NCBI GenBank assembly: GCA_947184155.2 | Contig: CAMXCT020006445.1 | Coordinates: forward strand, 495,723 to 559,722 | DNA length: 64,000 nt | From: Cladocopium goreaui | Taxonomy: Eukaryota > Sar > Dinophyceae > Suessiales > Symbiodiniaceae | Reading direction: 5' to 3' | Part shown: positions 23,669 to 43,242 of the stretch, piece after piece | Numbering within the stretch: position 1 is the stretch's first letter | How the letters are laid out: the number at the start of each line of letters is the position of its first letter | Notes under the pieces: model-generated | Database searches by the model: none | Told to the model about the DNA's origin: nothing | Seen by the model: the letters and a program-made list of their open reading frames with translations, nothing else | Translations under genes and position numbers: made by a program

Positions 23669-24131
23669 ACTATAATATATATATATATCATGATATATCT
23701 CTATGACATTGTATGACAATATTCCAGACTTATCCTATGTGCATGTTAAATGGAATACACATAATATATATATACATGGGTTTGAGTCAACATTTTGTAC
23801 CCCAATAATTGGATGTTTAATTCCTAAATATATATAGATTAAAATCCGTGGTCCACCAGGTCTCCATGTTGACCCATACCCATATTATCACTACGTAGTT
23901 CTATGGATATACACAAAATATATATAATGATATAATATTCAGTACATATGGAAAATACATGAAGATACATGTAAGTACTATGAGATTCAGCTGCCATGCA
24001 TACGCACGATGTGTTTGTATATTACACATGGCAAATATTGCTATAGCAAATATTGAAAACACTGAAAACCATGGGAAAAAAACAAAACACACCTGTGTAC
24101 CTTGCATCCATGATATCAGAATTTCTCAAAC

Positions 24132-24211
24132 CTTCGAACCCTTTGGTTTCCCTGCCACTGGCTGAGAGGTACAATCCTCTGGCAGCCCACTGTCGCACAC
24201 CGCTGAACGGC
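24132..24211 (-). CDS. TSP1 exon: second half of module 4
   Basis: Acceptor AACGCTAG|GC and donor TCGAAG|GTTTGAG bound 80 bp. A first codon completed from the exon at 25.3 kb (C+GC) gives Arg, then RSAVCDSGLPEDC and TSQPVAGKPKGSK. This supplies the R-x-V-C-x7-C-x(5-7)-KP part of a TSP1 repeat, following CGAGVQR exactly where expected. TSP1 modules are disulfide-bonded extracellular adhesion domains, stacked by Trp and Arg residues. Confidence 0.8.
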
Positions 24212-24235
24212 CTAGCGTTTCAATTTTCAGTAGGT

Positions 24236-24380
24236 ATCACTAAAGCCCATAATCATCTATCGTCATCTACAATCACTAAAAAACCATCTATCCTTTTTTT
24301 ATCACTAGCTCCACGGATAGGTTTTTAGTGATAGATGATAGATGATGGGCAGTGATAGTAGATGATTATGGATGACGGGT
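24236..24380. repeat. Imperfect palindrome next to an exon
   Basis: CATCTATCGTCATCTACAAT and CACTAAAAAACCATCTATCC are mirrored by GGATAGGTTTTTAGTGATAG and GTAGATGATTATGGATGACG. It ends about 25 bp upstream of the acceptor of the TSP1 exon at 24132..24211. Not one of families A to H. Confidence 0.7.
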
Positions 24381-24767
24381 TAACATATTGTAGTTGTAAT
24401 TACTTGGCTGGGATAACGGGTTAACCAACACACACATATATATATATGTATGTATGTAATAACACCATGTCTATATGTATATATATATACATTTACGTGA
24501 TAAAGATCTTACAAGTGACATCACCAACGGATGTATAAATATTTACATCTTTCCGCCAATTTCTTGGGTAGATCGTGTCCAACTTCCAAGGGGCTGGGCC
24601 TTGGAGCTGCTGAGGGACTGCGATTTTTGGTTTTCGTAGCCGCTTGATATGCTGCATGGCAACAATTTTTTGTTTCACCATGATAAAAATGATGGGTACA
24701 ATATATATACATGCATATATCTTATAATATACCATGGATCCATGGGTGATAATGCAAAGTTACCCAT

Positions 24768-25118
24768 TTGAAAACAAACAAAACACTAATAACAATGAAA
24801 CATGAACTGGCTCCAGTAATTCGATCAGAAAAAAAGGGGGCCAACATGGATACAGTAATTGATGATGTCAATGAACAAGTCGCAAAATTACTTGCTAACC
24901 GGTTACAAACCAGATCTTGGTGGTCTTTGTTTTGGAGACTAGTGATTTTTCAGTTTACCACATCCTTGATAATTGATGTCCATCTATACACTGGATGTAT
25001 CCCCCTTAAGCAAAACCGTGGGTGGAGCAGTCTGGGGCCTAAGAAAGTGAGACTAATCTCATGTTGGAGATTCCCCAATCGTACTGGCTTAATATCTATT
25101 GTATATATATATATATAG
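24768..25118 (+). CDS. Open frame, doubtful
   Basis: 116-codon plus-strand frame (KKGANMDTVIDDVNEQVAKL, then LANRLQTRSWWSLFWRLVIF). Partly protein-like, but antisense to the exon chain and inside an intron; the tail runs into a TA microsatellite. No family recognised. Confidence 0.15.
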   Translation: MKTNKTLITMKHELAPVIRSEKKGANMDTVIDDVNEQVAKLLANRLQTRSWWSLFWRLVIFQFTTSLIIDVHLYTGCIPLKQNRGWSSLGPKKVRLISCWRFPNRTGLISIVYIYI

Positions 25119-25323
25119 GTTTTCAATTTCCTGTTATTTGTATAGTTAAATCCCCAATTTCATCCCTAGTTTTGGATGGAAAAAACTAGTTCAACCATGT
25201 TAAATCCCCGATTTCATGGTTCAATCATGTTGTATCCCCCATGTTGCAGTTGATTTCCCATCCCTGGGGTCCCTTTTTCCCCTTATCTCCCCTTTCCCGT
25301 CTCGGTCCCCCCGGGGCCCCCAC

Positions 25324-25406
25324 GTTGCACTCCAGCACCGCACGTGGCATCACAGTCGGACCATGCGCTGATGGTCCAACCGCAGCCGGAGGTCACACGG
25401 CAGGAC
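25324..25406 (-). CDS. TSP1 exon: end of module 3, first half of module 4
   Basis: Acceptor CTGCTCGAG|G and donor CAA C|GTGGGG bound 83 bp. The first G completes CA from the exon at 27.6 kb to CAG (Gln). It then reads SCRVTSGC, the closing cysteine pair of one module, and GWTISAWSDCDATCGAGVQ, the W-x-W-S-x-C-x-x-T-C-G-x-G opening of the next. The open codon C is completed by the 24.1-kb exon. Confidence 0.85.
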
Positions 25407-25524
25407 CTCGAGCAGAAGGGCGTTGCTGGGAACAAACCTGCTTATAATACCGATTAATAATTTAATAGTGGTTAATAGTGGTTATTAGTGATTAATACCT
25501 GGCCTGATCTAATGAACAATATAT

Positions 25525-25628
25525 CTGGTTGGTGGTGGAATAACCATCTTGAAAAATATGAAAGTCAATGGGAAGGATGACATTCCATATATTCTGGAAA
25601 ATAGGACATGTTCCAAACCACCAACCAG
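25525..25628. mobile_element. Family A copy
   Basis: CTGGTTGGTGGTGGAATAAC ... ACCACCAACCAG, preceded by the arm GGTTAATAGTGGTTATTAGTG (from about 25453), the longer outer arm shared by copies at 6.2, 50.4 and 60.3 kb. Confidence 0.9.
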
Positions 25629-25643
25629 TTATGGAATGTGGAG

Positions 25644-25764
25644 TACCCGGCCTGGTAAACATACTTAAAAAACTATTGAACAATTGCCCAGTCGAAATAG
25701 TTGATTTACCCATTAATAGCATGGTGATGTTCCATAGTTTTTTGTATGTTTACCAGGGGGTTAC
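25644..25764. mobile_element. Family B copy
   Basis: TACCCGGCCTGGTAAACATA ... TTTGTATGTTTACCAGGGGG; both termini slightly diverged. Confidence 0.85.
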
Positions 25765-25856
25765 AGGGGTAACATCCCAACTTATGGGGTGAAAATTGCC
25801 GTAGTCATATCATGTTCCATTTTTGAAAAACACTGGCCTGAAGAAAAACATGGTAC

Positions 25857-25984
25857 CTACAAGGTGGTGCCCCCAAGATAGTGAAGTTGGTGAACACAAC
25901 TCTAATTTCACTAGGACTTAATGGGATTATCAACTACTATCAACATTATCAACCAACTTATACCTGGGGCACCACCTTGTGGGA
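25857..25984. repeat. Family H inverted repeat
   Basis: CTACAAGGTGGTGCCCC at the left and GGGGCACCACCTTGTGGG at the right enclose about 90 bp; seen only once. Confidence 0.8.
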
Positions 25985-26471
25985 AAGGGACAAGAGTCTT
26001 GGGTATACAACTTACATTGACTTACTATGATTTGGGAACTGGGACAGCATTGGGTATACATGATATAACCTGGGAAATGGGAAAACATTGGGTATATATA
26101 TATATATATATTAAAATTAGATATTATATATGGTATATATCATGGGATATTTTCTGGGCTGGTGGAATCAAAGCCGGAATCGTCGCGCATCTCTTGTATT
26201 TTCTGAGGACAAAATGGGGCACATTTTGGGTAGATAATTTAATTCATTATCCTAGCAATCTTAATGAGAAAACTAAGAGATTGCTGGCAGTTGCTGGTAT
26301 AAGCTTTATTTGCTGCCAATCAATTCATGGCTCTTTCAATGGCTTAATCGATTTGGTTGATATTGGTTGATGTTTGTTGATACACAACGGTTGATACGAA
26401 GCGTGGCACGCTTATCATAGTTGGAAGGCAGCAGGCCAAGTAGACACTGCGACCCAAGAATTTCAAGAACC

Positions 26472-26846
26472 TTAGTTGCTGCGATATCTTCGATCCAGCA
26501 CACGCTCTCGGACACAGCCCAAGTGGGTCAAGATCGCAGCATCAACCTGTTCATTCCGGCCTGTTGGCCAACCTAGCACTCTCTGCAAAAGATCATGCGG
26601 GGGCGACATTCGGGTCGCAGCAAAGGCTGGGCAGTCCCAGGCCAAGTGATCCCATGTTGGCACATTGCCGGACGCACACCACCTGAGGAGCTGGTGCGGT
26701 GTAATCAAGCAAGCACGTGAGTGAGTGTTGGAAGACTGGTATGTTTGGCGCGCGAGTTTGGCCCTGGCCTCTTGGTAAACACTTCCTTGTACAGCAGTGG
26801 CATCACGACGGCCACTTGACAAGAACTGTTGAAACTGTTGTCTGCG
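26472..26846 (-). pseudogene. LINE ORF2 C-terminal relic
   Basis: The minus-strand frame ends naturally (RVLDRRYRSN, stop). It contains CASGNVPTWDHLAWDCPAF, the C-x(n)-H-L-x-W-x-C-P zinc-knuckle-like signature found at the C-terminus of many non-LTR retrotransposon polyproteins, then LLQRVLGWPTG. Upstream QQFQQFLSSGRRDA is in frame, but a stop lies just before it and no reverse transcriptase motifs precede. So this is a 5'-truncated remnant in the intron between TSP1 exons at 27.6 and 25.3 kb. Confidence 0.7.
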
Positions 26847-27367
26847 CTATTTTGGATGGTTGCTTGATGTGGTTGATATTGGGTTTGTCTGAAAAAAAAA
26901 TGCCTCCAATTCAAATGGATTATCCCGTTGGGATGGCAATTTCGGGGTATGCCTCATTTTTAGACACACCCAAATCACATGCATTGTTGGTTGTATCACC
27001 GGTTGAAAAAAAATCACTTGTTTTTCTTTGTCCCACCGTCCAGTGCTTATATCCACACAAAATTGTCGGTTAATATCACCAAAAAAATGCAAGTGAAATT
27101 TGGTTTCGCTTGTGCCCTAAACAGTAAAGGAATAAATGCTACCAGTAGTTTCCCCGGTGGAAACACTTTCAGCTCCAGCAAAACCATTGGTTAAATCATC
27201 CAATCCCACGCAGTCCTCCCAAAAATGGCTGTAGCTGTAGGGGGTATTCAATCAATTTCATCCATTACTATATTACTATATATATATATACATTTATACA
27301 TGTATATATATATAGCACTATATAGCCAAGTCATTCCATCATCTTCCATTCTAGCACCATGTTTCAT

Positions 27368-27481
27368 CTGGTTGGTGGTTTCAACCCCTCTGAAAAATAT
27401 GAGTTCGTCAGTTGGGATGATGACATTCCCAATTAATATGGAAAGTCATTAAAGAAAATCATGTTCCAAACCACCAACCAG
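27368..27481. mobile_element. Family A copy, near consensus
   Basis: CTGGTTGGTGGTTTCAACCC, core CCTCTGAAAAATATGAGTTC and GTCAGTTGGGATGATGACAT, end ACCACCAACCAG. One of the most complete copies. Confidence 0.95.
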
Positions 27482-27628
27482 TCAAAAAAGAGGATATAAA
27501 TTGATCCTGGTACACAATGTAGAAATACCAAGGTATATATCTTTCACCAGCTAAGGGGATATACCAATGGCAACCAATGGCCATCCCCGGCCATCCACTG
27601 GACTGGTCCTGGTCCATCCCCAAGGCAC

Positions 27629-27696
27629 TGCGAAGTCGCTGGCTTCGATCCGCTGCAATCCAAGTCTGTGCCGCTGCTACACTGCACACTCCGGGC
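27629..27696 (-). CDS. TSP1 exon: second half of module 3
   Basis: Acceptor GATGCCACAAG|GCC and donor TTCGCA|GTGCCT bound 68 bp, phase 0 in and phase 2 out. It reads ARSVQCSSGTDLDCSGSKPA then TS. Joined to the preceding exon it gives CGDGTM-ARSVQC, the standard C-G-x-G-x-x-x-R-x-V-x-C of TSP1, then C-x7-C and a KP motif. Confidence 0.85.
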
Positions 27697-27940
27697 CTTG
27701 TGGCATCGCAAAACATGGTGAAGTCCATTGGGATTGCCATGGATTTGGAGAAACCGGAGATCTCAGATCGTCATAAATCCGAAATTCCATATATATATAT
27801 ACACATAATATATATATATTATATATATGATCACCATCACCATATATCCTGGTATTAAAATTTGAAACTCTCCACCATATAACACATCCTGGTAGTAGAA
27901 TCACTGGAGCTGAGAAGTTCATGGAGAATTCCATTGGATT

Positions 27941-28042
27941 TGCCCTCTGGTAAACATACCAAAAACCATGGAAACTCACCATGTTTAATGGGAAAATCCA
28001 CTATTTCTATAGCCATTTTCAATAGCTATGTTCCAGAGGGTA
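27941..28042. mobile_element. Family B copy, right end shortened
   Basis: TGCCCTCTGGTAAACATACC ... AATAGCTATGTTCCAGAGGGTA. Confidence 0.9.
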
Positions 28043-28451
28043 ATGATTTAGACTCACAGAGATCGGTCAATGAGATGTGGGTGAACAATGGTGAGCTATC
28101 CAACTCACTGAGGTGAGCGAGACACCTATGTGGCGCCATGGCGTATTATGATGTATTATGCACATACCCTGGGTAGATTGCATTATTGCATATGGAAATG
28201 ATGTGTATATATATACATATCATATGTATATAGTGAACTATAAATATATAGGTAGTTATATATATATGTACAATATACATTGTAGTAAAGTGGTCTACCA
28301 TGTTTCTACCGTGTCGATGTATTCGATTCTATGTGCCACATTTATCCAGAAGCCTTAATCTACTTGATTCACTTGAAACACTTTACCCTACAAACTGGTG
28401 CCCCCCGAGCTTGGAGATTCACCATGAGTTCCCCCCAGTTGTCGGCCAGAC

Positions 28452-28501
28452 CATAGTCCCATCGCCACAATCGTTGGAGCAACTGGACCAATCGCCAATA
28501 C
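28452..28501 (-). CDS. TSP1 exon: first half of module 3
   Basis: Acceptor GCTGGATCCAG|GT and donor ACTATG|GTCTGG bound 50 bp. It reads (C)IGDWSSCSNDCGDGTM, with W-S-S-C-S-x-x-C-G-x-G. The first two bases GT complete the T left by the exon at 29.3 kb to a cysteine codon. Confidence 0.85.
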
Positions 28502-29297
28502 CTGGATCCAGCGGTGCTAAACGCGGTGCGAAACGTAGGGAAAACACGTAGGGTTGCTGGGGGTTGCTGGGATGATTCTTAGGGTTACACGTAGTGATGG
28601 ATGATTAGATGACTCTGGATGGATCCCTCCCGAGAGTTTAGCACCAGATATGAGGGGTCTCAAAATCAACTATTTTAAGAGATGCTGGGAAACCTGGCCC
28701 AGAGAAATAGCTGAGAAATCCTCACAAATATGATGCTGCCAGGTTCGATCGCGAAGGATCTTACCGGAACAAACTGCGTTTCCCAAACAATTTCTGAAGC
28801 TCAACCACTATCAACAATTCCATGATATGGAATGGAGAAACAAGAATTGCACTGCTGGCAAACTCAAAGTGGGTAGTTTATATTCAAAACACATAGAATT
28901 TCATAGAAACCTCTAAGAATCCAACCCGCAAATGCGGAAATCGAGCAGGTGACCAACTCCCAGTGAAAACATGGGACTTTCCAACGTGGCCATGTCTACT
29001 TCACGAGTTTTAACCTTCAAAATTCAGGGAATTTGGTGAGCTGTGGTGACGCAGCTGGCCAGCTAAAACAGAACTTCGTCAACCAAAAAAAACATGGTTA
29101 ACATCTGTGGACCAGGGCCAAAAAAAATGGGTCCCAAATTGCTGAGTGGATTGTATACATGTATATATTCAAAAGCTAACCATGTTTTTTTTTTTAATAT
29201 TATATATACATAAATATATTTGGACTGCAGAAGTGTATCTCAAAATCAGCCATGCTTCCAGTAACATGGCTTTCACTTTGCGGCGCACGCCACTCAC

Positions 29298-29340
29298 AGG
29301 TGCTGGTTCCACGGCAAGTCTCGGTGGAAACCGGTTCGAC
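29298..29340 (-). CDS. TSP1 exon: tail of module 2
   Basis: Acceptor GTAAGCCCCAG|GTC and consensus donor ACC T|GTGAGT bound 43 bp. It reads VEPVSTETCRGTST plus the first base of a Cys codon. This is the C-x5-C closing segment that leads into W-S-S-C of the next exon. Confidence 0.85.
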
Positions 29341-29390
29341 CTGGGGCTTACCATGGCAGCCCCGTGAAAGAGCATTAGGGTAGAGTAGAG

Positions 29391-29830
29391 TATAATATTC
29401 ATTGTAAAGTGAGATATACATTATAATATTCAGTGTAAAGTGAGATATACATTATAATATTCAGTGTAAAGTGAGATATACATTAAAATATTCAGTGTAA
29501 AGTGAGATATACATTATAATATTCATTGTAAAGTGAGATATACATTAAAATATTCAGTGTAAAGTGAGATATACATTATAATATTCAGTGTAAAGTGAGA
29601 TATACATTACAATATTCAGTGTAAAGTGAGATATACATTACAATATTCAGTGTAAAGTGAGATATACATTATAATATTCAGTGTAAATAAAGTGAGATAT
29701 ACATTATAATATTCATTGTAAAGTGAGATATACATTATAATATTCAGTGTAAAGTGAGATATACATTATAATATTCAGTGCAAAGTGAGATATACATTAT
29801 AATATTCCGTGTAAAGTGAGATATACATAA
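29391..29830. repeat. 31-bp satellite array
   Basis: About 14 copies of a 31-bp unit beginning TATAATATTCAGTGTAAAGT. Most copies differ by 0-2 bases; one carries a 4-bp insertion near 29687. It lies in the intron between TSP1 exons at 30.7 and 29.3 kb. Confidence 0.97.
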
Positions 29831-30160
29831 TACTAATATATCATTATAAAGTACAATATCGATATAAATGTGCTATCATGTTTTACTATGTCGTATCCAT
29901 TTATATCCATGATTTCTGTGATAGAATCCAGTAAACTTGCTAAGCACCTTGAATTATTATGAATTATTGGCTTCTGAAGTTTTGCTGGTTAAGTCATGGT
30001 TTGGCTGGCCATCTCTCCAAACAAATGGCTGCTTCAATCCACATGTTGCGGAGCCCCCAATTGCGGCGCTGCATTCATCCCGTCGGTATGTACCATGGCT
30101 GGCGATCGTCGGTCAATCCCGCAGTTTGAGACAATCCCATACCGGCGATCACGTCACCAT

Positions 30161-30269
30161 CTGGTTGGTGGTATACCTACCCCTCTAAAAAATGATGGAC
30201 TTTGGCAGTTGGGATGATGACATTCCCAACTGAATGGAAAAATAAAAACTGTTCCAAACCACCAACCAG
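30161..30269. mobile_element. Family A copy
   Basis: CTGGTTGGTGGTATACCTAC ... ACCACCAACCAG with the typical core; abuts a GC-rich island at 30.04-30.15 kb in which I could not decide a frame. Confidence 0.92.
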
Positions 30270-30434
30270 CCATATTTCCCTCTGAACTTGCACACGATAT
30301 TTCCTGGATGCTGTATGTGAAAAAAAACAAGCAGTTCCCGCGCAAAAAGGGATGTCAAATTTCTCAACCCCCCAAAAAAAATGGATGGTTTGATTGATAC
30401 TTCGAACAGTTTTACAGTTTACACAACAATCATT

Positions 30435-30513
30435 TGGAGGTTCCTGAAAGTTGGGCTACCCCTAGTTATCATCCATTTCTAGATGGGATTTTCCTCCAGC
30501 TATTGGGGTGCCT
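30435..30513. mobile_element. Family E copy, degenerate
   Basis: TGGAGGTTCCTGAAAGTTGG ... CCTCCAGCTATTGGGGTGCC. Confidence 0.5.
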
Positions 30514-30741
30514 GTATAGCATCTCTGGTAAGCTAATATAGCTATGGAAAATCACTCATGCGTAAATCATGGTAAATCACCAAAAACAGTTGTCATTTTC
30601 CATAAATCATCCATTTCTAGATGGACTTTCCATAAAATAGACCATCCAATGTCCAGCAACCTTGGGGTACCATGACTATGGAAAACCATGCTGTTCCTCC
30701 AATCTTTGGATCAGGCGGAGCTGCCAACCTGAGGGCCGGGC

Positions 30742-30784
30742 CTGGAATTGGGCACAATCTGCCGGCCAGCCACTGGGGCAGCTC
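30742..30784 (-). CDS. TSP1 exon: middle of module 2
   Basis: Acceptor CAGATCCTAG|G and a GC donor (TTCCAG|GCCCGG) bound 43 bp. It reads (V)SCPSGWPADCAQFQ, the C-x7-C segment with spacing identical to the exons at 27.6, 24.1 and 45.5 kb. The non-GT donor was chosen because it keeps phase 0 into VEPVSTETC and gives the 12-residue cysteine spacing of module 1. GC donors are known in dinoflagellates. Confidence 0.75.
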
Positions 30785-31144
30785 CTAGGATCTGGATGAT
30801 CTGGATCCAGCTCCGAAAAAGCCAAGAAAAAATCGATGGCTATATCATGGACATGATTTTCATGGGATATTGATGAGATATTGAATGATCTTGAATGATA
30901 TTTTTTTTATAGATCACGCTAAAACAAAAATGACATTACTTTGATGGGAGATTTTAGAGATATTTTCATGAATTTAGCCTCCAGCAATCAAACCTGACTG
31001 GATGTGGCTGGCTGGAAAATCTCCAAACATGAAGGTTTGAATGGACAAATCATCTAAAAAATGGGGGATGACCAATTTTCTTGTTTGATTACACTCCGAG
31101 GGTATGTGTTTCTTTTTTTCGAGGGATGCAAAGTAACTGGAGGT

Positions 31145-31247
31145 TACACTCTGGTAAACGAACATAGCTATTGAAAATTGTCATTTATAGTTGATTTACC
31201 CATTAAAAAAAGTTATTTTCTATAGTTATGTTAGTTTACCAGAGGTA
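31145..31247. mobile_element. Family B copy
   Basis: TACACTCTGGTAAACGAACA ... TTATGTTAGTTTACCAGAGGTA. Confidence 0.93.
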
Positions 31248-31419
31248 TCTTCATCAAGTCATCAATATTGACGTAAATGAAGGCATATGATGAAATGGAC
31301 CGCAGTAGTATGATGTCAATGAAGAGTTGGGGACTGCAAACTTTGGACTTCAAACTTTGGACTTTACAGAAAATGGGGACTTGATGGAACAAGGAAATTC
31401 TATGATATTCTATGGGCAT

Positions 31420-31523
31420 TACCCTCTGGTAATTTAACATAGCTATTAAAAATTGCTATTTATAGTGGGTTTTCCCATTAAAAATGGTGATTTTCCATAG
31501 TTATGTTAGTTTACCAGAGGGTA
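31420..31523. mobile_element. Family B copy
   Basis: TACCCTCTGGTAATTTAACA ... TTATGTTAGTTTACCAGAGGGTA; intact. Confidence 0.95.
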
Positions 31524-31929
31524 ATATAATTAAGTATCCATGTAGCCCCGACCAAAAGCCATGGATCTATGTTCACCATGGCCGGTCGAGACCAAACATA
31601 ATTTTCGGGAGCCTGGATTCACATAAATTTGATCTGCAACAGGGATTTTGTTGCTCACTTAGCACTTTGTAATGACACTTTTAACATGATATATATATAT
31701 AGTTTGTAATTCATATACGTGTTCAGAACTGCCAAGAAAAACACATCTACTCAACCCAGAATTCTACGGCGTTTATCTACCGTCCAACATTGAAACGAAG
31801 CTCGAACTCACAGGATTTTGAACAGCGTCTCTGTTGGATTGGTGTTTCCTCGTCATGGGGCTAGCCCTATTTTCATGGGGAATCCCTATGCCAATTACCA
31901 ATTGGCTATATTAATGGTGGTTTCCATAA

Positions 31930-32025
31930 ATGGAGATACCCCAAAAATTACATGGTTTTCCATGGGAAAATCCTACCAGATTTCTGGATGATGGAGGTAC
32001 CCCCATGACTTGTCGGAAACCTCCA
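31930..32025. mobile_element. Family E copy
   Basis: TGGAGATACCCC ... GGAGGTACCCCCATGACTTG ... CGGAAACCTCCA. Confidence 0.7.
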
Positions 32026-32114
32026 TCTACAGGAAACACCCATATTTCATGACGAAAAGTAGCGGTAGATCTTCCCCCGGAAACCTCCATGGAGAACCTC
32101 CCAAGAGGCCGCAC

Positions 32115-32151
32115 ACAGATCGACTGCGAAGACCGGCGCCGCAGGTGGCAC
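32115..32151 (-). CDS. TSP1 micro-exon (37 bp): CG box of module 2
   Basis: Acceptor GCGCTAGCAG|GT and donor GATCTGT|GTGCGG. It reads (S)ATCGAGLRSRS(V): the T-C-G-x-G-x-R-x-R strand of TSP1 on its own exon. Ser is completed from A+GT and Val from GT+G at either end. A family A element begins 29 bp upstream of the acceptor. Confidence 0.85.
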
Positions 32152-32180
32152 CTGCTAGCGCTAGGTTGATGGGATCGTAT

Positions 32181-32285
32181 CTGGTTGGTGGTTGCAACCA
32201 AGCCCTCTGAAAAATATGAGTCAGTTGGGATGATGACATTCCCAACTGAATTGAAAAATACAAAATGTTCCAAACCACCAACCAG
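32181..32285. mobile_element. Family A copy adjoining an exon
   Basis: CTGGTTGGTGGTTGCAACCA ... ACCACCAACCAG, flanked by GTAT/GTATC. On the minus strand it forms the end of the intron just before the TSP1 micro-exon. Confidence 0.92.
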
Positions 32286-32874
32286 GTATCAATGTAGTTC
32301 TATTAATTTCCAAAAATGGGGATATCACGAGGGATATCTATACAAAATTCAAAAGCACAGTACACATTACAGTAGATACATGATCATTTTTGCGGATGTA
32401 CGTAAAATATCATATCATTAATATGTCTACAATAAAAGATACGAACCAAACATGCGAAAGGGGGGAGGTTCAAATGGACAAATGGTTTTCTGAATCGTTC
32501 TGCTTCCAGCAACAAAAGATGCATGGGCAAGGCCTTACAGTATCACCCATCGATTTTTCGGGGGGTTGCAATTGTCTTGGGCCATTTTTGAATGAGTTCA
32601 TGGTGCATGGCAAACATGCTGAGTTCAAAGTCTTCCCAGTTCTGATACACAAGGCAATATTCCAGGAAAATCCTACATTCCTGATAGGGCCACACGCAGA
32701 GCATCATAGGTGTTTCTCAAATTTTCGACACCCGAAACCATTGGTTTTCCCATTAAGCATGACGGGTCCTCCATTTTAAGAAAACCCCATATGGTTGTGG
32801 CTCAATACCTCCTATTCCTAATGAACCTCAAGAAAACATTATCGCAGCACAGCAACCCGATGCAAACCAGGCAC

Positions 32875-32914
32875 TACAAGCACTCCAAGTTCCTTCTAGC
32901 CAAGCACATCCGAC
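32875..32914 (-). CDS. TSP1 exon: opening of module 2
   Basis: Acceptor CGCATGGCAAG|GTC and donor TGT A|GTGCCT bound 40 bp. It reads VGCAWLEGTWSACS, where the last Ser is completed by the 32.1-kb exon. It supplies the C-x-W-x4-W-S-x-C start of the module and the closing Cys of module 1. An open plus-strand frame across it is a shadow. Confidence 0.8.
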
Positions 32915-33199
32915 CTTGCCATGCGTGGCGACAGAGAGATTCATTGAGCTGGATTAATCGCAATAATTCAATATGTTTCAACTACTAGGACATTTGGGGA
33001 TAGTCTCCCCTATCACATCATTTACGGTCAATCATTGACGTCGCAGTGCGGGCCTCGTATTGTATCCAGATTGAAGTCTACACCAATTTGATGCACATGC
33101 AAGGGTCTGGAAAAAGGCCCACATGTTTGGGCATGTTTGGGATGACACCATCCAATTTGGACGGGTGGTCAATTTGGAAAGAACATGAAACAAGCGAAC

Positions 33200-34085
33200 A
33201 TGTGTATATATAATAAATTAAACATTTATAAACATATAAATATGTAAAGAGAACACTAAATATATATATATAGATTATTCTACACAAACAACTATATTGT
33301 ATATATGTATGTATTATTAAACAATATATATATATTTGAATATATATATAGATTATAAAATATAGTGAAAATTAAAAAAAAAATCTATTTTTAATATTAT
33401 ATTTTTGATATTTTAAATAGGTTGATATTTTATATGTTTAATATTGTATTCTATAAATTTAAAAAAATATTATATATTGAATATTAAATATATATAGTAG
33501 TATATATTTAATATTTTGTATCATATTATATATTATTATATATTATAAATTAAATATTAAATATTAAAAAATATTTATATTATATAATATGTATTAAATA
33601 TTAAATATTATATATTAAATATTATATATATATACTGAATATTTGATGTTATATACTGAATATTAAATATCAAATATTATATATTATAGTTTATATATTC
33701 AATACTATATACATAAGAAAACAAAATTATTAATTATATATTACATATTAAATAAAAATATTATATATCAAAAAAACACATTGTATAAATTATACATTGT
33801 GTATTAAATATTATGTAGTATATATATTGTATATTGAATATTATACATCAAATATGATATATGATATATACTGTATGGTATACAATATAGTAAATTTAAA
33901 CTATGATAAATGAACTACTATATTACACATTATACATTGTATAATATATTTTGAAACTCATATATAAAAATAAGATATAAAATATAATATATAATAACTA
34001 AACGATATATAATATATAATGTATAAATTATAAAATGAAATGTATATGTATATACATAGTATAAATAATATATATATATTTATAC
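33200..34085. repeat. AT-only low-complexity block
   Basis: About 880 bp consisting almost entirely of A and T, with recurrent ATATTAAATATTAAATATT motifs. No coding signal. Confidence 0.9.
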
Positions 34086-34089
34086 GTTT

Positions 34090-34330
34090 GGCAGGTTGCT
34101 CTAGCATGATTTTCTGTAGCATAAATGTTCGGGCACACGGGGATGCTGCCACATGCTGGCACACAATTCCAGGTCTTGCTGATGCTTGGTCTGACTAGTT
34201 ACTGCCACGCTCTGCCACGTATTCTGCCACACTTCAAGGGTGTTGCTGCCAGTTGCACTGCCACACTTGAAAGGTGTTTTTGCCACGTGTGCTGAGTAGC
34301 TACTGCCACGTGTATTGGCACACTTTATGA
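34090..34330. repeat. TGCCAC-rich degenerate repeat
   Basis: About nine TGCCAC or TGGCAC motifs at irregular 10-35 bp spacing (GCTGCCACATGCTGGCACAC, ACTGCCACGCTCTGCCACGT). A minus-strand frame reads VWQNTWQSVAV here, but no family was recognised. Confidence 0.5.
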
Positions 34331-34700
34331 CGTCTTCTGACGTCTTATGTATATTACATATATATATATATACACACACACATATTTTATATATAATGAA
34401 TATATATATATATATGTATCATTATGCATTCTTGTCTCGAAATGGTGTAATTATAGCCATAAAATTGAAACTTGAATAGGAACACTGATTATGAACCATA
34501 TGAATTTGCTCGTCGAAGCTCTCCGGTGCGGCAATATGTCCTCTTTCTCAAACACAGTGAATCTTAGATAGCCCGCAAAAGAAACATCATTTTACAGTAG
34601 ATGCTGCAGTTTTTCGATTGCCAATAACATGGCAACAACATGCAACATATTCAACTGCCCGAGGTTTACGCTGGCACATTCGCTAGGAGCCCCCGGCCAC

Positions 34701-34786
34701 GTCGTAGCACCCCTCGAGAGCCACAGGCTTGGGTCCGGCTGCAGTGCAGTCAGCGTCCAGCTGCGTCATAGAACAGTAGACTGCAC
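34701..34786 (-). CDS. TSP1 exon: second half of module 1
   Basis: Acceptor GGTCTCCAG|GT and donor TACGAC|GTGGCC bound 86 bp. The first GT completes C to CGT (Arg), then AVYCSMTQLDADCTAAGPKP and VALEGCYD. Joined to CGSGTRT this gives the textbook R-x-V-x-C, C and GPKP features of TSP1. Confidence 0.85.
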
Positions 34787-34839
34787 CTGGAGACCGTTGG
34801 GATCTTGATTTTGATCCAAAACATTGGAGGAACAACATA

Positions 34840-34947
34840 TGGGGGTTTCCACAGTCATGGGGGTTACCCCAATAGCTGGATGGTCTGTGGAAAATCCATC
34901 TAGAAATGGATGATAACTAGGGGTACCCCCATGTCCGAAACCTCTAT
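34840..34947. mobile_element. Family E copy
   Basis: TGGGGGTTTCCACAGTCATG ... GGGGTACCCCCATGTCCGAAACC; symmetric halves. Confidence 0.75.
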
Positions 34948-35287
34948 GTGTAGAACTTACTTTTAAAGACTTTTTGCAGCTAGCCATCAGTTGGATTGAA
35001 CCCAACAGAAAAGGTATACAAGCACTAGAATGTGGCTTTGATCACCAAAGGGGGAAGTTGATGAACAAAAAACTGATGCAGTAAAAGTTCCGGGTCTTTG
35101 CAACACACACTTTGTGGATATATCATGTATATAATGTAACCGCAAACGGGAGTGAACCATTCAAACAATTTTTCAATATCAGCAACAATGCGGTAATGAG
35201 TAATTAACCAGCAACAAAATCAGGGTTTAGCTGGGAAATTGTAGGATTCAGCCATACTCTTTATTTTACTTTAGTGCGCGCATACAT

Positions 35288-35391
35288 ACGGTGGATGGAA
35301 GACATCCTGCACCACCTTGGATGGTTGAAACCCTATCAATAAGGGGGTAAACCACTATCAACTGGTGCAGGATTCCTTCCATCCACAATAT
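35288..35391. mobile_element. Family G palindromic element
   Basis: GTGGATGGAAGACATCCTGC ... GCAGGATTCCTTCCATCCAC; a near-perfect hairpin whose second copy lies inverted at 45.4 kb. Confidence 0.9.
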
Positions 35392-35927
35392 CTACGTATA
35401 GTTCAGTACATATATGATTCATGAGGATATGTTCTCCATCAAAGAATTGATATGCAGCATTCAGCAGCAAAATAGACACATTATGAAACTTGGAACGCCA
35501 CCAAAAAAACAAAATATCAACAAATAGCATGGGACATTTGACAAATCAAACTTGCGACTCAAAATATCAAGTTATTGAGGTTGAACAGTGAAGATCCAAA
35601 ACATGAGACATAGAAAGCGGACCGTCAAAAAGAGCTTACCTGATATACATGTATATATATATATGTGTATACACAGACACCGAATCAAAGTCTGAATGCA
35701 ACCAATTCCTATAGATCCAACCCTCTGACACAGTCAACATAGATCTTCAGGGCTGAGTACCTTTCAAGGATTTGGACCTGCTGTACCTTCCGCATCAGTG
35801 AACCATTTCAGAAACATTAACCGTGGCCTTGAAATCCTGTGAAATCAAGGTATAGTGACAGAAACAGATAACCCAAGTGCTTCAAATATATATATATATA
35901 TATGTATAAGTATATATAGATATAAAA

Positions 35928-36500
35928 TATGTATGTATGTATGTATGTACGTACGTATGTATGTATGTATGCATGTATGTATGTACGTACGTATGTATGT
36001 ATGTATGCATGTATGTGTGCATGTATGTGTGCATGTATGTGTGCATGTATGTGTGCATGTATGTGTGCATGTATGTATGTATCTATGTATGTATGTATGT
36101 ATGCATGTATGTATCTATGTATGTATGTGTGTGTGTCTGTATGTATGTATGTATGTATGGATGTATGTATGCATGCATGCATGTATGTATGTATGTGTGT
36201 ATGCGTGTATGTGTGTATGTGTGGGTGTCTGTATGTATGTATGTATGCATGCATGCATGCATGCATGTATGTATGCATGCATGCATGCATGTATGTATGT
36301 ATGTATGTGTGTATGCGTGTATGTGTGTATGTGTGTATGTGTGTATGTGATTGTATGTGATTGTATGTGTGTATGTGTGTATGTGTGTATATATGCATGC
36401 ATGCATGCATGTGTGTATGCATGTATGTATGTATGGATGCATGCATGCATGTGTGTGTATGGATGGATGGATGGATGCATGCATGCATGCAACATGTATG
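35928..36500. repeat. Large ATGT/ATGC tetranucleotide array
   Basis: About 570 bp of ATGT, GTGT and GCAT tetramers. It creates open frames of up to about 238 codons on both strands (MYVCMYVC... and HTYIHTYM...). These are artefacts of the repeat period, not proteins. Confidence 0.97.
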
Positions 36501-36948
36501 TAAATATTTCTTTCGATTGTTCAATATGCGTGATGTATCAATATTTCATTCACTTCGGCAAGTTCGCATGATTCAGCAACCTCAATGTAATTTGATTTAT
36601 GTCAGCGATTCTCAAGAGAAGAACGGCTTGTTCACGCCTCACCCTAGATAGTCTGCACCACAGTGGGCTACTCCATTTTTGTATTTATAACAAAACAAAC
36701 ACACACACACACACTTATTCAGCTACCTGGGCAAGATACATCAAAGTTTACCCAGTCTAGATGAGGCTGCGACGCTACAACCACCATCGACAAATTTGTA
36801 TTAAACAGTGAAGCACATTAAAACCATCAAATCTGCAACATGCATGGTTTAAGACGTTCTAAGACTATCAAAACATAAATAACCAAAAAAATCTGGGTCC
36901 ATTGGAGCTCCATCTCCTGGGGTGACCCTGAAAATTTTGCCGAGTGAC

Positions 36949-36998
36949 GTGTACGCGTGCCGCTGCCGCAGCTATTGTCGCAGTTCTCCCATGATTGC
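36949..36998 (-). CDS. TSP1 exon: first half of module 1
   Basis: Acceptor CATTGCCAAG|G and donor ACAC|GTCACT bound 50 bp, the same length as the equivalent exon at 28.4 kb. It reads QSWENCDNSCGSGTRT plus C of an Arg codon: W-x-x-C-x-x-S-C-G-x-G-x-R. Confidence 0.85.
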
Positions 36999-37465
36999 CT
37001 TGGCAATGGAAGTGGCCAGAAAAGTGTAAATACATATAAAAAGAAATGGGGTGATTTTGCTGCCCAAAGAACCGGGATTGATAACCCCTGGTCAGCACAG
37101 CTGCTACCAACTTAAACGTTGCAAAAAACATTTTTGGGCTTATCCTGCCAATTAGACGTCGGGCTTCATTGATCCGGGGCTGGCATTAGATCCTAATTAA
37201 AGTCTACCCGAGACAAAAAAAACTACATTATTTGTCCAAATAATGTTTCTTAAACAACCTAATAGCTGTGTTGTCTTTAGTCTTTAATATAGTATCCGCA
37301 TAACCTGGTAAACCCAATGAACTATCAAATCCGTAAACCACGCAAAAGTGGAGAGTTGGGTATCTGCCACCATGGCAAATAACACATGCGTGACCAAGAG
37401 TGCCAAAGACCAACATGTACAGTACCCTCCAGTAAACCAAGAGGTGTCAAAAATCAACCATATTT

Positions 37466-37577
37466 CTGGGTAAATTATAATATTTCACTAACCTGAATGA
37501 AGGCCATTTGGGGATGATCTCCCTTATTAACCATGATTCCAGTGAGGGAGAACAGTGAGGTCGTTATAATTTACCAG
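37466..37577. mobile_element. Family D element
   Basis: CTGGGTAAATTATAATATTT ... GGTCGTTATAATTTACCAG; TIRs of about 15 bp around GGCCATTTGGGGATGATCTC. Confidence 0.9.
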
Positions 37578-37681
37578 ATGTTTGGATCATACCTTGGGGT
37601 TTTCCATGGATTCTCCATATCACACTTCGTTGCTTTGCCTCAGCATTTTCTGGTTCCAATGCGGAGGGCCAACCTGGGCAC

Positions 37682-37722
37682 CCAAACGTCACCCAAACGC
37701 AGCCATTGGTCTCATAGCAGTC
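37682..37722 (-). CDS. TSP1 tail exon
   Basis: Acceptor CACAAATTGCAG|GAC followed by DCYETNGCVWVTF and a split Gly codon, with donor TTTGG|GTGCCC. It supplies the C-x5-C close of a preceding module and W before the 36.9-kb exon, which needs the phase 2 left by this donor. A GA donor a few bases earlier (GTTTGGGT|GACG) is an alternative. Confidence 0.7.
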
Positions 37723-38339
37723 CTGCAATTTGTGGCGGGTTACTTTTGAGTACTTCATAGTCGATCATCCCAATCTGATCAAAAAAAGGTCAACATTTGA
37801 TGCGAGTCTCATCCGTATAATCGGTAAACATCCGGATTCTTTGTGGATCCCCTTTTGCTGGAGGTCCCCTATTTTACAGTTTGGCCCTTCTCACCTCCAA
37901 AAAATGGATCACATTGGGTGAACCAACAGTAAAGAACGTCCTGCGGAGTCCCAGCGTCAAAACAGGTTCGAGTGTCAGTGTGTTCCTGAAGTTTCTCAAG
38001 AAACCACATTGACTAGTTGGTTGACAACCATTTATTGCTTCAACATGTTTGAACTACCTGTTTGCTAGCTCAATGGTGCAGAATCGGATAACACGAGAGG
38101 CCCCGGATGTCGCTGGTAAGTTCATGGAGCTTGTCTACGCGGTCTTCCGTGAAATAAACCCAGAGACTGTGGTGTCATGGGTAAAGGTCAGCTCACAGCT
38201 GATAAAATAGAGATCAGAGATCCATCTCCCATAAATGCCATAAACATCCATAAACCATCATAAGCCAATGATCCTATAAGTATTGGTCCGTGGCCCAGCC
38301 CAAAACAACCCCATGTTTGCTGGTTGAATCACCATTATT

Positions 38340-38468
38340 CTGGGTAAATTATAACATTTCAATATTTCACTAATCTGAATAGTTCGGCCATTTGGGGATG
38401 ATTTCCCTTGTTAACCATGATTCCCGGTTTGCGGTTGAGGAGAACAGTGAGGTCGTTCTAATTTACCT
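38340..38468. mobile_element. Family D element
   Basis: CTGGGTAAATTATAACATTT, GGCCATTTGGGGATGATTTC, GAGGTCGTTCTAATTTACC. Confidence 0.85.
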
Positions 38469-39077
38469 TCTTTTTTTACCGAAGTCAAAGAGTCCACGGC
38501 CTGAGGGAGTGAGACCGTGGCTGATGCCAGTTGTTGGCAATGCCATGCAATGATTGTTTAATTGATGACCAGCGGTTTTTGCTTTTGTTATCGCCATTTC
38601 CTTGTCAGTGTATACCCCTTAGTGACATCCTTTAAGTGAACGATTCGAACTGTTGGTGAGTTGTAGTCCTTGTGGCAAGGTCAAGCTCAGTCCCTCAATA
38701 GCTGGAAATGTGTCAAAGGTACGATGCTACTGCAGATATTGAAACATGTACTGGGCAGCATGAGCCTGATAAGGCATCTCCGGTCGCGGCAAGAAGCCGT
38801 ATGGTTGATTGGATGCTCCGAGCAGGTATAAACTTCGGCAGAAGCCTCTGGTCTTGTCAGGCCAGACATCCTCTGCTGTCAGTTTACGTACCTGTAGCAT
38901 CAGATAAGAAACCGCATTAGCCCGCTTCTCCTATTCCAACCTTGTGACAGGAAATGGTTAAACGGTGGGCCGACACTCGCTAGCGATTGTCAGCAAAGAA
39001 GCATTCATGTTTTATGAACAAAGCAGGCCACTTTTTCCTTTTGCGCATCTGTGCAGTGGCGCCAGGGTCGAAGGCAA

Positions 39078-39530
39078 CTACGAACATTGGTGGTGGCTCA
39101 AAGCCGTCACAAAGCCGGTCCACGTGTCATAGCGCCACCGACCAAAGAGTTGACCGTGACACCGCAAACAGTGCTTATGCACCACCTCACAGCCGTTGCG
39201 AGTGCGGCGTGGCAACGGAGCGCATTGTTGCTTCAGTAGCCAAATTTCCTCACACGTTCGAGCCAGGTCCTTGATGACAAGCCGCGCGCCGTGAAGACAG
39301 CGCTGGAGGGGCTGCGAAAGCAGGTGCATCTTGCCATCCAAAAGCACAGCAGCAGCCCCCAAAGTCAGCTCCAGGAAGTCTCCTTTGGTGTCGTCGCTCA
39401 GTGCTAAAAGGCGTGCAGTGTCGGTCCATAGATCACCAAATTCAAGAAGGCAATGGCCAAGCCTGGGGGCAGCTTGTGTACTGTCAGACACCGTGCCTTG
39501 CAACTTTCTGATTGGCCATTTGCTGAACAA
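39078..39530 (-). CDS. 150-codon frame, unidentified, possibly a relic
   Basis: Longest non-repetitive open frame of the window. Contains LGHCLLEFGDLWTDTARLLA, DDTKGDFLELTLGAAAVLLD and VHKHCLRCHGQLFGRWRYDT. Composition is protein-like and GC-rich. No domain recognised. It lies in a zone with LINE and kinase remnants, so it may be a decayed retrocopy or transposon part, or an exon of the host gene. Splice sites not defined. Confidence 0.35.
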   Translation of the reverse strand: MFSKWPIRKLQGTVSDSTQAAPRLGHCLLEFGDLWTDTARLLALSDDTKGDFLELTLGAAAVLLDGKMHLLSQPLQRCLHGARLVIKDLARTCEEIWLLKQQCAPLPRRTRNGCEVVHKHCLRCHGQLFGRWRYDTWTGFVTALSHHQCS

Positions 39531-39894
39531 GGCAACGCCTGATGCTTACCTCTTAGTGATGGTCTCTGATCCGTGCGTTCTACTCGGTCTGGGAGTGGCA
39601 TGGACCACTTAGAAAAAAATCAGGAACCCCCCAAACTGGCGTTAGACAACTTTGGTGGCCGCCGTCTCACTGGCTGTCAGCAAACTGAGTTTATGAATTA
39701 CAGCTTAAGAATTTGAGGGGCTTGAATCCAAGGCGGGTTATATATTTTCAGCTATGCCAAGAACATAGTACTTTAAGAATTCGAGGGACCCTGGAATAGG
39801 ATTGCCAAATTCTTAAATTACTGCTTACACGTGAGGTTTGCAATTCCCATTTGCGGTTCGTTTTTTGTTGTGTGACCCCTTAAGGTCTAATGGG

Positions 39895-40135
39895 ATGAAA
39901 TCGGGCTTTGCAGGAAAAAATCAAGCTCCGAAATATTGTTTTTTCGCACATGCTTGGACTGCTTCCAATCCACGCGAAATCTATATGTGGATAGAGTTGG
40001 GGACCTGAAACATGGTTTTCCCCAATAACTTGAAGAAAACTGAGGCTTTGCAGGAAAACAATTTTTCAAGCTCCGAAAAATTGCTTTTTTCGCACATGCT
40101 TGGACTGCTTCCAACACGCAAAATCTATATGTGTG
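39895..40135. repeat. Direct repeat, two units of about 118 bp
   Basis: GGCTTTGCAGGAAAA...CGCACATGCTTGGACTGCTT...AAATCTATATGTG...GGATAG occurs twice in tandem with about 85-90% identity by eye. Confidence 0.85.
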
Positions 40136-40182
40136 GATAGGCTTGGGGACGCCAAAAGATTGACTGACGCTTTTAGATGCCC

Positions 40183-40262
40183 AAAGAGGCGGCTATCGGG
40201 ATTCGAACCTCCAACCTTCACGCCTGAACTCCGACACTCTGACCATTATGCTACAGGAACCT
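40183..40262 (-). ncRNA. tRNA-like sequence, probable SINE head
   Basis: The minus strand carries a perfect A box (TAGCATAATGG) and B box (GGTTCGAATCC) about 33 bp apart, as in tRNA genes. However, the acceptor, anticodon and T stems do not pair: GTTCCTG faces TAGCCGC. It is therefore not a working tRNA. A tRNA-derived SINE or tRNA pseudogene with an internal Pol III promoter fits best. Confidence 0.6.
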
Positions 40263-40342
40263 TGCCTTCAAAGCATTTTGCCTGCTGATTCTCTCTTTGC
40301 CCTGGCTGCAAAGGGCTGGGTTTAGCACGGGTTGCAGCTGCG

Positions 40343-40612
40343 AAAAATCAATTCTTCAGGCTCTATTTTTTTTTCTGCACTGTTCTTGTGAAACTCAAGG
40401 AAGCCCGGCTTTGCAAAAAAAACAATCAGGCTCTTAAAAATTGTTTTTTCCGCGCTGCTCTTGTGAAACTCAGACAAGCCTGGCTTTTCAAAAAAAGAAA
40501 TCAGGCTCTAAAAACATGTTTTTTCCGCGCTACTCTTTGGAACTCAGGAAAGCCCGGCTTTGCAAAAAACAACTTTTCGGGCTCTATTTTTTTTCCGCAT
40601 GCCTCTTGTCAA
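40343..40612. repeat. Direct repeat, about four units of 66-70 bp
   Basis: Units share AAGCCCGGCTTTGCAAAAAA, TCAGGCTCTAAAAA and TTTTTTCCGCGCTGCTCTTG. Related in sequence to the 118-bp repeat at 39.9 kb. Confidence 0.85.
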
Positions 40613-40742
40613 ATCTGCTAACGCCACCTCCTTACCTTGTTTAAGCTCGCTCCAAATTGTGCGGATGCATGCAATACACAACTAAGAATGCTCTAAGGAT
40701 TTGAGGGACCCTCGACCTATTGTCCTGGAAATTTGCCTGCAT

Positions 40743-40960
40743 TTAAAAATAAGAATTTGAGGGACCCTGGGCCTCAAGCTTTCGGATTCTTAACCAACTC
40801 TCGGGCTGTAGTTCACGGAATTCACCAGTTTTTGAAGTTATTGATGTGGGATTGATGATGGCCAGGTTCATCTGCAGTCCTTCCGGTCCCGGGTTCCCGG
40901 GTTCTCCAACACGCACTGCAACAAAGGGATTGTGATCCTCTCTTCTTGTTGGCAAAATGC
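40743..40960 (-). pseudogene. LINE endonuclease N-terminal relic
   Basis: The minus strand reads VAVRVGEPGNPGPEGLQMNL then AIINPTSITSKTGEFREL. VGExxNPGP followed by a hydrophobic strand and NPT resembles the linker and start of the AP-endonuclease domain in dinoflagellate LINEs. The frame then degenerates without catalytic motifs. The upstream frame is shifted (40822..41034). Confidence 0.55.
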
Positions 40961-41769
40961 CATACTGACTTGTTGGAGATCCCTGACACGGCTTTTAATT
41001 GGCAATCCATGCGCATGACAGGGAATCTGTACACTTCTGGCTTGGCATGTGATGGTCTGGTCCTCTATGCAAAACTAAGGAAAATGGCAAAATTGGTGGC
41101 AATAGCATGAAGCAGTGCCCAGCTGGATGAACACGTATTTCCGCAACTTCAAAGATCTGGACAGGCAACAAGCTTGGAATTCCGTCCGTCTGATGGAGCG
41201 GCAGGGCAGTCAGAGGATTGGCCCCTCCTGTGCTTACTCTGAATGTGATTACTACCAGATGCATGGATCCTAAACATTTATGGCATCGGCTGTGCCCACA
41301 AGGGTTACAGTGCGCACACTGCATTGATGCGATTTGCACATTCCATGTCCAATATACTATTTATTTAAAAGAAATGTTAAAAATAATCACCTATATGCTC
41401 TTAACCCGTTGATGTCGATGATGATTGATTTTCCCAATAAACAAGGCTATGGCCATGGCGGCCATGGCTCACAAAACGCTTCCTTTTTTCTTCCACAGTG
41501 ATCCGAGGCTTGATGGCTTGATCCTGACCTACCCACTGGGTATGGATTTGGGCTATGGATCGCGTGTGGGTCCAGGGTATTCATCAGGGCCAAAGCATTT
41601 TGAGCCACGGCCAAGAATCAAGAAGGGAGTCTCAACTTGTCTCAACCATCCCCATGTTAAGATCATTGCTTCCGCATCTCCCAGACATTCCTGTAGCCTA
41701 TAATGATTTCATATTTTCATCACTCTTTTTGGAAACTTCCACGCCGGCACGGCCGGGCACTACCCACTA

Positions 41770-42135: not shown

Positions 42136-42224
42136 GCAAAAGCCAAATGGGCGGCTCCGCAGTCATCTTCACGGGGAAGTATGGCAATGGCGTGTGGCTG
42201 CCATACAGCGCCAAGGCTAATGTA

Positions 42225-42244
42225 GGCCGTTATAATTTACCCAG
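42225..42244. repeat. Solo family D terminus
   Basis: AGGCCGTTATAATTTACCCAG, the right end of family D without a partner, adjoining the kinase fragment. Confidence 0.6.
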
Positions 42245-42299
42245 ATTATTGTTGGTTATATTGTCATATGATACAAAATTGTGGTTGAAATCAAAATTG

Positions 42300-42960
42300 T
42301 GGTTTCTGGTTTGATAATGCAGCAGGAATCACCGCAATTTGCGATGGCTTTCCCACTTACAAACAACCAATTGACTGGAGGATTTGGGTATTCTTGGTTA
42401 CATATTCTCTGATATCCCCCATTTCCTAATCTTATATACCATGGGAACCCTGAAATATAAACAGTGCTACATCCGAATTCTAGAAAGCCCTCAACTATCT
42501 ACAAATTATGTCCCAAAAAGGTAAACTCCGCTACAGTAACAATTCTTGTGAAACGCCCAGACGTCTGCTCTGTTGGCACCTCCTCTACTGCGGGCATGCT
42601 GCCCGGGCAATCCGCAGCCTGCCCGATTTGTTTATCATGCATCTTCCCACGGCAAACATCCAACAACCCTGGGTATTTTCACCAAACATGCGTTAAACAC
42701 AAGATATGATTTGGTTCACAGATATGTCCCTTTCTGTTTGGACAAATCTTATGGTATATCCCGTTGTATTTCCATGACATTCACATTAATTGTCCCAATT
42801 ATCCCGAGTATATCCTGCAATCTCCCGCAGTACATCCCCCAAAGTGTCTGTTATACAAGGTGGCCCTTCAAAACAATAGGTAAGTTTGTTTATAATTTAT
42901 AACCAGCTTGGTTTATGGAAGAATATCACTCTTTAGTATTCATGGGGGTTATAAACCAAA
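42300..42960. other. Intronic stretch without recognised feature
   Basis: Moderately GC-rich in 42.54-42.70 kb, where short frames exist on the plus strand (SVGTSSTAGMLPGQSAACPI). No family or splice structure recognised. Confidence 0.4.
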
Positions 42961-42987
42961 CAATAATAAGTGGTTATCCCCACCGTG

Positions 42988-43169: not shown

Positions 43170-43242
43170 CTGTCCGCTTGGACATGTGACGTCGCGTTGC
43201 CGCTGGCCGGGGCCGCAGCTACTACTGCAGCTGGACCACGAC
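43170..43242 (-). CDS. TSP1 exon: first half of an upstream module
   Basis: A strong acceptor (TTTCATCTCATCAG|G) is followed by SWSSCSSSCGPGQRQRDVTC then PSGQ: all hallmarks of TSP1 (W-S-S-C-S-x-x-C-G-x-G-x-R-x-R-x-V-x-C). The end is set at a GC donor (GACAG|GCAGAA), but the frame stays open (AEPRQSRQHLQWRP), so the true donor may be lower. The partner encoding the next cysteines was not found between here and 37.7 kb. Confidence 0.8.

Follow-up and report, generated by a model that had tools for sequence, protein, structure and literature searches.

Exon chain and its product

The window, i.e., the whole stretch of 64,000 nucleotides considered here (positions 495,723 to 559,722 of contig CAMXCT020006445.1 of Cladocopium goreaui, hereafter C5848:495723-559722), carries on its minus strand a chain of very short predicted exons that would splice into successive TSP1 modules. 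The corrected model has at least 13 exons in the window, 35-86 nt long (mean 55 nt), and 12 introns of 551-4857 nt (mean 1531 nt) with GT or GC donors and AG|G acceptors. These exons give five modules in succession, of which three are complete, one lacks its first residues and one its last residues. We presume, with a probability of roughly 0.87, that this is a minus-strand stretch of a dinoflagellate nuclear protein-coding gene with five ADAMTS-like TSP1 modules.

A preliminary description of this DNA had listed 11 of the exons, with fitting phases, and had proposed that they join into successive TSP1 modules, an agreement hard to obtain by chance. The exons read exactly as it says: AG precedes each of them, GT follows ten and GC one (30742), G is the first base in 11/11, and together they make 621 nt in a single open frame of 207 aa. 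The absence of a TSP_1 match for the joined translation had been named beforehand as a possible refutation; the match lies above the threshold (2.1e-20), as does that of TSP1_ADAMTS (1.5e-26), each in four stretches of the product. For TSP1_ADAMTS (PF19030; curated Pfam cut-off 23.8 bits) the score rises from 92.9 bits for this chain to 100.1 with two donors moved, and to 113.9 when, besides, two exons are added upstream and the last exon is made to end at a GC donor. This corrected model clears the cut-off of TSP_1 (PF00090; 21.6 bits) as well, with 88.8 bits, the E-values being 4e-33 for TSP1_ADAMTS and 2.6e-25 for TSP_1. The Pfam models that match the joined product are TSP1 models only, and its PDB matches are four distinct sequences, all named thrombospondin-1 (best E 1.2e-8).

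The same chain is found by a spliced Viterbi search, in which a looped module profile is run along the DNA and splices are allowed at GT, GC or GA and at AG. A profile built from the window modules gives 384.7 bits on the minus strand of the 20-46 kb region versus 20.3 on the plus strand. When the profile is built instead from ten modules lying outside the window, the minus strand of 24000-43500 scores 283.7 bits, and seven of the 11 exons come out with both ends exact (three other runs do this for an eighth, 34701-34786); this profile is partly dependent, its modules having first been found via those of the window, and Pfam is the independent check. It could be objected that the free choice of junctions gives wide latitude for a chance assembly of open frames, and the best of four other 19.5-kb stretches of the window does reach 34.3 bits (range 17.1-34.3). 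Nevertheless, none of 24 dinucleotide shuffles exceeds 23.4 bits (mean 19.0, standard deviation 1.7), the plus strand gives 24.5 and the reversed strand 14.4; considering also the Pfam E-values, we can hardly credit a chance assembly, and the preliminary description was right on this point. Its interpretation as a whole is supported.

A genome search (1.17 Gb, 6202 contigs) with the spliced product recovered only four of the 11 exons, and a profile of classic TSP_1 modules from other genes fitted poorly, gave a wrong partial model (76.5 bits) and was replaced by the cluster-type profiles. Some exons placed by the profiles were rejected: C5848:541227-541318, from one window-module run, lacks the TSP1 pattern and is unused in a further run; those at C5848:489-515 kb (window 18986 and lower) also lack the pattern and are judged spurious.

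Exons and their boundaries

The description given above kept most of its exon bounds in the corrected model; two donors were moved, one end was left undecided, and the chain proved longer, since two upstream exons had been missed. All exons are given in the order of the minus strand. The first of the missed ones, 43170..43242 (73 nt; GC donor, AG|G acceptor), comes from the spliced profile searches and holds the start of window module 0 (..GSWSSCSSSCGPGQRQRDVTCPSGQ); taken singly, it matches PF19030 at C5848:538886-538966 with 30.3 bits. The first residues of this module must derive from a still earlier exon. The second, 42580..42618 (39 nt; AADCPGSMPAVEE; GT donor), comes from the same searches, and the outside-module profile favours a longer end for it, at 42541.

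In exon 37688..37722 (35 nt; DCYETNGCVWVT) the donor is shifted by 6 nt from 37682, as found by the spliced profile searches, including the one with the outside-module profile. Exon 36949..36998 (50 nt) is as first described and is given by both the window-module and the outside-module profiles. Several spliced profile searches, and the genome search with the spliced product, agree on 34701..34786 (86 nt), also as first described; the outside-module profile makes its end 3 nt longer (34698, with a GC donor). Both profiles return 32875..32914 (40 nt), 32115..32151 (37 nt) and 30742..30784 (43 nt, with the GC donor) with the bounds initially proposed.

Exon 29289..29340 (52 nt) has its donor shifted by 9 nt from 29298 according to the profile searches. 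The shift restores the pattern C-x-W-x4-W-S-x-C, and the protein then reads TCEWRIGDWSSC, matching the other modules. The preliminary description had pointed to codons split across introns that complete conserved residues; Arg (C|GT), Ser (A|GT), Val (GT|G) and Gln (CA|G) hold, whereas Cys (T|GT) falls with this donor and becomes Arg (C|GT). Exon 28452..28501 (50 nt) is unchanged and found with both profiles; 27629..27696 (68 nt) and 25324..25406 (83 nt), likewise unchanged, are recovered by the genome search with the spliced product as well as by the two profiles.

The last exon, 24156..24211, keeps its initial start; its end varies by run, being 24132 with the window-module profile (GT donor), 24156 in a further run and 24147, with no donor, with the outside-module profile. 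The end 24156, with a GC donor, is our guess; it is in register with a distant exon at C5848:460022.

Modules and the possibility of decay

Together with modules outside the window, 20 modules of at least 35 aa were compared, 5 of them in the window (two shorter ones were dropped from 22). W-x-x-C is present in 20/20, and six cysteines in 16/20; three of the five window modules have six, and the other two are the cut ones, with five. The window modules keep the family pattern of tryptophan, cysteines and R-x-R/V. The motif C-x-x-S/T-C-G, which we take to be the O-fucosylation sequon, occurs in 12/20 modules and in 4/5 of those in the window; the genome has 6 matches to genes of the O-FucT family.

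These exons might belong to a decayed, unexpressed copy of a TSP1 gene. Such a pseudogene would agree with the many foldback repeats of the introns and with the presence there of kinase-like pieces split between two frames. The genome search did not reveal a near-identical copy on which selection on the window exons could be tested, most exons being too short for detection. On the other hand, each of the 13 exons has preserved its open frame and splice sites, the modules retain the family pattern, and a neighbouring segment (see below) is strongly conserved in its exons only. We consider a pseudogene very unlikely and retain the reading as a protein-coding gene.

The kinase-like pieces (glycine loop and hinge) lie at window 41844-42162 on the minus strand, inside the intron 37723-42579, and appear decayed; their Pfam E-values are 0.043 and 0.0048, both under the curated cut-offs. 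Two exons placed by the outside-module profile, 40988-41062 and 42048-42104, are in or near this stretch, disrupt the module pattern and were dropped. The minus strand also has an open stretch at 39081-39539 (153 aa), with the top codon score listed for the window (52.2 bits) and no Pfam match, and another at 26478-26816 (113 aa), also with no Pfam match, which presumably resembles the tail of a LINE-type retroelement.

Neighbouring modules and extent of the gene

The spliced profile search found further modules that share type and strand with those of the window; they lie at C5848:447-460 kb, at C5848:590-593 kb and, on another contig, at C764:133-160 kb. Other TSP1 loci of the genome are on C1157, C6187, C5879 and C1890. 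C764 repeats C5848 with 95-99% identity from 435.7 kb (the edge of the examined sequence) to 454.8 kb and then diverges. In the shared part (447-455 kb) the predicted exons differ at 1/368 aligned positions, synonymously and with no gaps, versus 249/7205 differing positions and 572 gap columns outside them (Fisher P = 7e-5), which supports the exon method on this neighbouring segment. The near-identity ends abruptly at C5848:454.8 kb / C764:140.6 kb, in or beside a TSP1 exon; this may be a duplication border, an allele or a mis-join.

The 590-593 kb chain ends with GCTWQKG in an open phase, and the first exon of the window begins with SWSSC in the matching phase, so that the two halves make a module of the usual length across a 51,031-nt intron. 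At the other side, the last exon of the window (end 24156) continues in register with the 29-nt exon at C5848:460022, about 60 kb on. Among 12 ordered joins of the four segments, upstream-to-window (-8.0) and window-to-downstream (-13.1) are the two best; the other ten range from -14.7 to -26.9, and an in-gene control join gives -14.6. Further, if the exon at 593 kb is begun at an acceptor 17 nt before the CSW codons, it reads YETVSCSW, so the pattern seems to begin in a still earlier exon.

We therefore suppose that the gene probably extends past the chain in both directions, across introns of about 51 and 60 kb, and a single gene of at least 146 kb is the reading to which we lean. Three adjacent separate TSP1 genes (the chain of the window and those at C5848:590-593 kb and 447-460 kb) are a serious competitor, which we regard as the less probable. 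Gaps of about 51 and 60 kb exceed the 26,372-bp intron singled out in a review (PMC11453091), and the spliced profile search leaves the upper gap empty, while the exons it places in the lower are weak and patternless. Against separate genes, the chains stop mid-module at the gaps, and the phase and register of the halves agree best when these are joined as they lie in the genome.

Splice sites and intron positions

The set of intron sites comprises 43 predicted introns, four C764 introns that repeat those of C5848 having been dropped from 47. Their donors are 26 GT, 13 GC and 4 GA; since the scoring charges GC, GA and non-G acceptors, genome frequencies should not be read from these tallies of donors and acceptors. 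At the second exon position, after the initial G, the base is C in 19 cases, T in 18, A in 6 and G in none. In the same coding stretches G is followed by G in 274/1065 cases, and by our arithmetic the chance of 0/43 is about 3e-6; the scoring favours the exon-initial G, but not the second base.

For the coincidence of sites one more intron was dropped at a cut edge. The remaining 42 predicted introns occupy 30 (column, phase) sites of the repeat profile, with 14 coincident pairs; this count depends on the alignment and on junctions that are predicted rather than observed. Random placement gives 10.3 +- 3.7 pairs at a G not followed by G (P 0.18), 8.8 +- 3.3 at any G (P 0.09) and 5.1 +- 2.3 at any base (P 0.003). 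Thus, the coincidences do not exceed those of placement at permitted sites and are explained by the site rule. Two or three introns are present in 16/20 modules.

Since the introns stand at different places in different modules, the data suggest that most of them were gained after duplication of the repeats. The same differences could arise by random loss of ancient shared introns together with boundary sliding, and two of the three most similar module pairs (up0/para1 and win0/para0) do share one site each. The most similar pair (63% identity) shares none, though, and sharing of sites shows no tie with module similarity (P = 0.29); moreover, 30 sites in a 48-column module would need an ancestral intron about every 5 nt. 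We believe that such loss is unlikely and that late gain describes the pattern better.

Repeats within the introns

Introner elements would be one source of new introns, and the introns were inspected for their traces. Two of the 12 window introns were searched genome-wide: the non-self matches listed cover an internal part of about 110 bp, apart from three marginal ones in one of the searches, which cover other internal pieces, and none of them reaches the splice ends (scored candidates: the best 40 of 1685 in one search and of 2463 in the other). No clear terminal direct repeats are found in the 43 introns (permutation P 0.06-0.79); the direct repeat between exon end and intron end is borderline, with P 0.06 at 6 and 8 nt. 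Nor are clear inverted terminal repeats seen in this set, the longest end matches averaging 5.65 versus 5.81 for re-paired ends. Target-site duplication, like terminal inverted repeats, was not seen in the 43 introns and was set aside. From the ends of these introns and the matches scored for two of them, a recent introner origin finds no support, while an old one is possible.

Two foldback repeats of about 110 bp are dispersed over the region. One (family B) is found at window 32179-32287 and 13 more window places, within C5848:440-587 kb and C764:105-161 kb. Its best match is on the minus strand, the sense strand of the gene, at 36/36 places (28 on C5848 and 8 on C764, including at least one duplicate), and five contigs with two matches listed each show one orientation. 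The orientation of this family may indicate which way the whole block is transcribed. The other (family A), with the ends CCCTCTGG/CCAGAGGG, is found at window 27938-28043 and many other places; it is dispersed over C5848 and C764 and is too palindromic to be oriented.

Discussion

The genome is that of a dinoflagellate: the spliced leader, as printed in PMC2606063, has 172 exact occurrences in it, and the reversed control has 0. Short exons, a GC donor and AG|G acceptors are then largely expected, which lowers the surprise of the chain. The gene is ordinary for its group but very intron-rich; its architecture is normal, only denser. If it works as its sequence implies, the modules would fold as an extracellular, disulfide-braced rod with glycans or proteins as its ligands, on the surface of the alga or in secretions; the C-x-x-S/T-C-G sites would carry O-fucose. 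On either side the gene would continue well past the exons listed, and intron insertion would mostly have followed the duplication of the modules.

Several points weigh against this reading. The spliced product is predicted from DNA and not from RNA, and the listed exons are an internal stretch that would not reach the ends of the gene. The selection test covers the neighbouring segment and would not extend to the exons of the window itself; the outside-module profile was found through window modules; and the kinase-like fragment in the intron 37723-42579 means that inserted sequence is present. Membership in the O-FucT family does not establish POFUT2 itself. As for the extent, the 51-kb and 60-kb introns rest on phase and register, the margin of the join over about 60 kb is slim (-13.1 versus -14.7 for the next order), and either intron might instead reflect an assembly error or the space between two genes.

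The boldest version of the reading combines all of the above: a single gene spans at least 146 kb and has a near relative on C764, introns entered its modules independently once these had been duplicated, and single introns of 50-60 kb are among them. We propose it tentatively, at somewhat less than even odds. If it is true, the repeats are aligned replicates of one target and keep an internal record of the sites permitted for intron insertion in dinoflagellates. Homologous modules at one locus with about thirty predicted intron sites allow within-genome comparisons for intron gain and for the dinoflagellate site rule, and the locus may be of more use to intron biology than for the protein it adds. 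What deserves following is the way in which the introns are scattered across the repeats; the gene itself is ordinary for its group, and real at the level of sequence. Among the titles and abstract openings listed, which include few subscription journals, no description of intron scatter across dinoflagellate TSR modules was found. It should also be mentioned that micro-exon genes of this kind are nearly invisible to an exon-by-exon search.

Comparison with known systems

The closest systems are the multi-TSR proteins of Symbiodinium minutum and S. microadriaticum (PMC5446238), likewise dinoflagellate and with many TSR modules: up to 16 and up to 20 TSRs are reported for the two species, respectively, with six cysteines per TSR in S. 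microadriaticum and five or six in S. minutum. The gene considered here adds one more multi-TSR protein to these reports from Symbiodinium genomes; its modules fit the ADAMTS-like Pfam model best, and the likeness is one of repeat content. In that source the Symbiodinium TSR sequences have a signal peptide, with VWA and a membrane domain given as absent, and a TSR antibody stained host tissue but left the surface of cultured symbionts unlabelled; judging by the labelling and domain content described there, a role in symbiosis is not implied. The apicomplexan TRAP adhesins treated in the same paper are alveolate proteins with TSR modules too, but most of them have VWA and all have a C-terminal membrane segment, whereas only an internal array is read here. 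An ADAMTS protease has a metalloprotease domain in the same protein; in the recovered part only TSP1 models match.

With respect to gene structure, the genes of Cladocopium goreaui described in PMC9412976 have GT, GC and GA donors (36.6%, 43.6% and 19.8%), AG|G acceptors (AGG at 96.1%) and many short exons, as is the case here. That assembly has 17.2 exons and 16.2 introns per gene, and its exons average 120.4 bp, compared with 55 nt for the present ones. The introns of the Symbiodinium sPCP genes are described as sag|GY (PMC4201569), which agrees in part with the rule found here that the exon-initial G is not followed by G.

With respect to intron gain, dinoflagellate introner elements (Roy et al. 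2023, as cited in the review PMC11453091; Amoebophrya, PMC7789003) would explain new intron places, but the 43 introns here have no clear terminal repeats, and the non-self matches listed miss the intron ends. The peridinin-chlorophyll protein genes of Symbiodinium (PMC4201569) offer a precedent, in which a coding unit was duplicated and fused and introns were then gained at different positions; they have three introns, placed with the help of related species, whereas some forty are predicted here within a long array of repeats.

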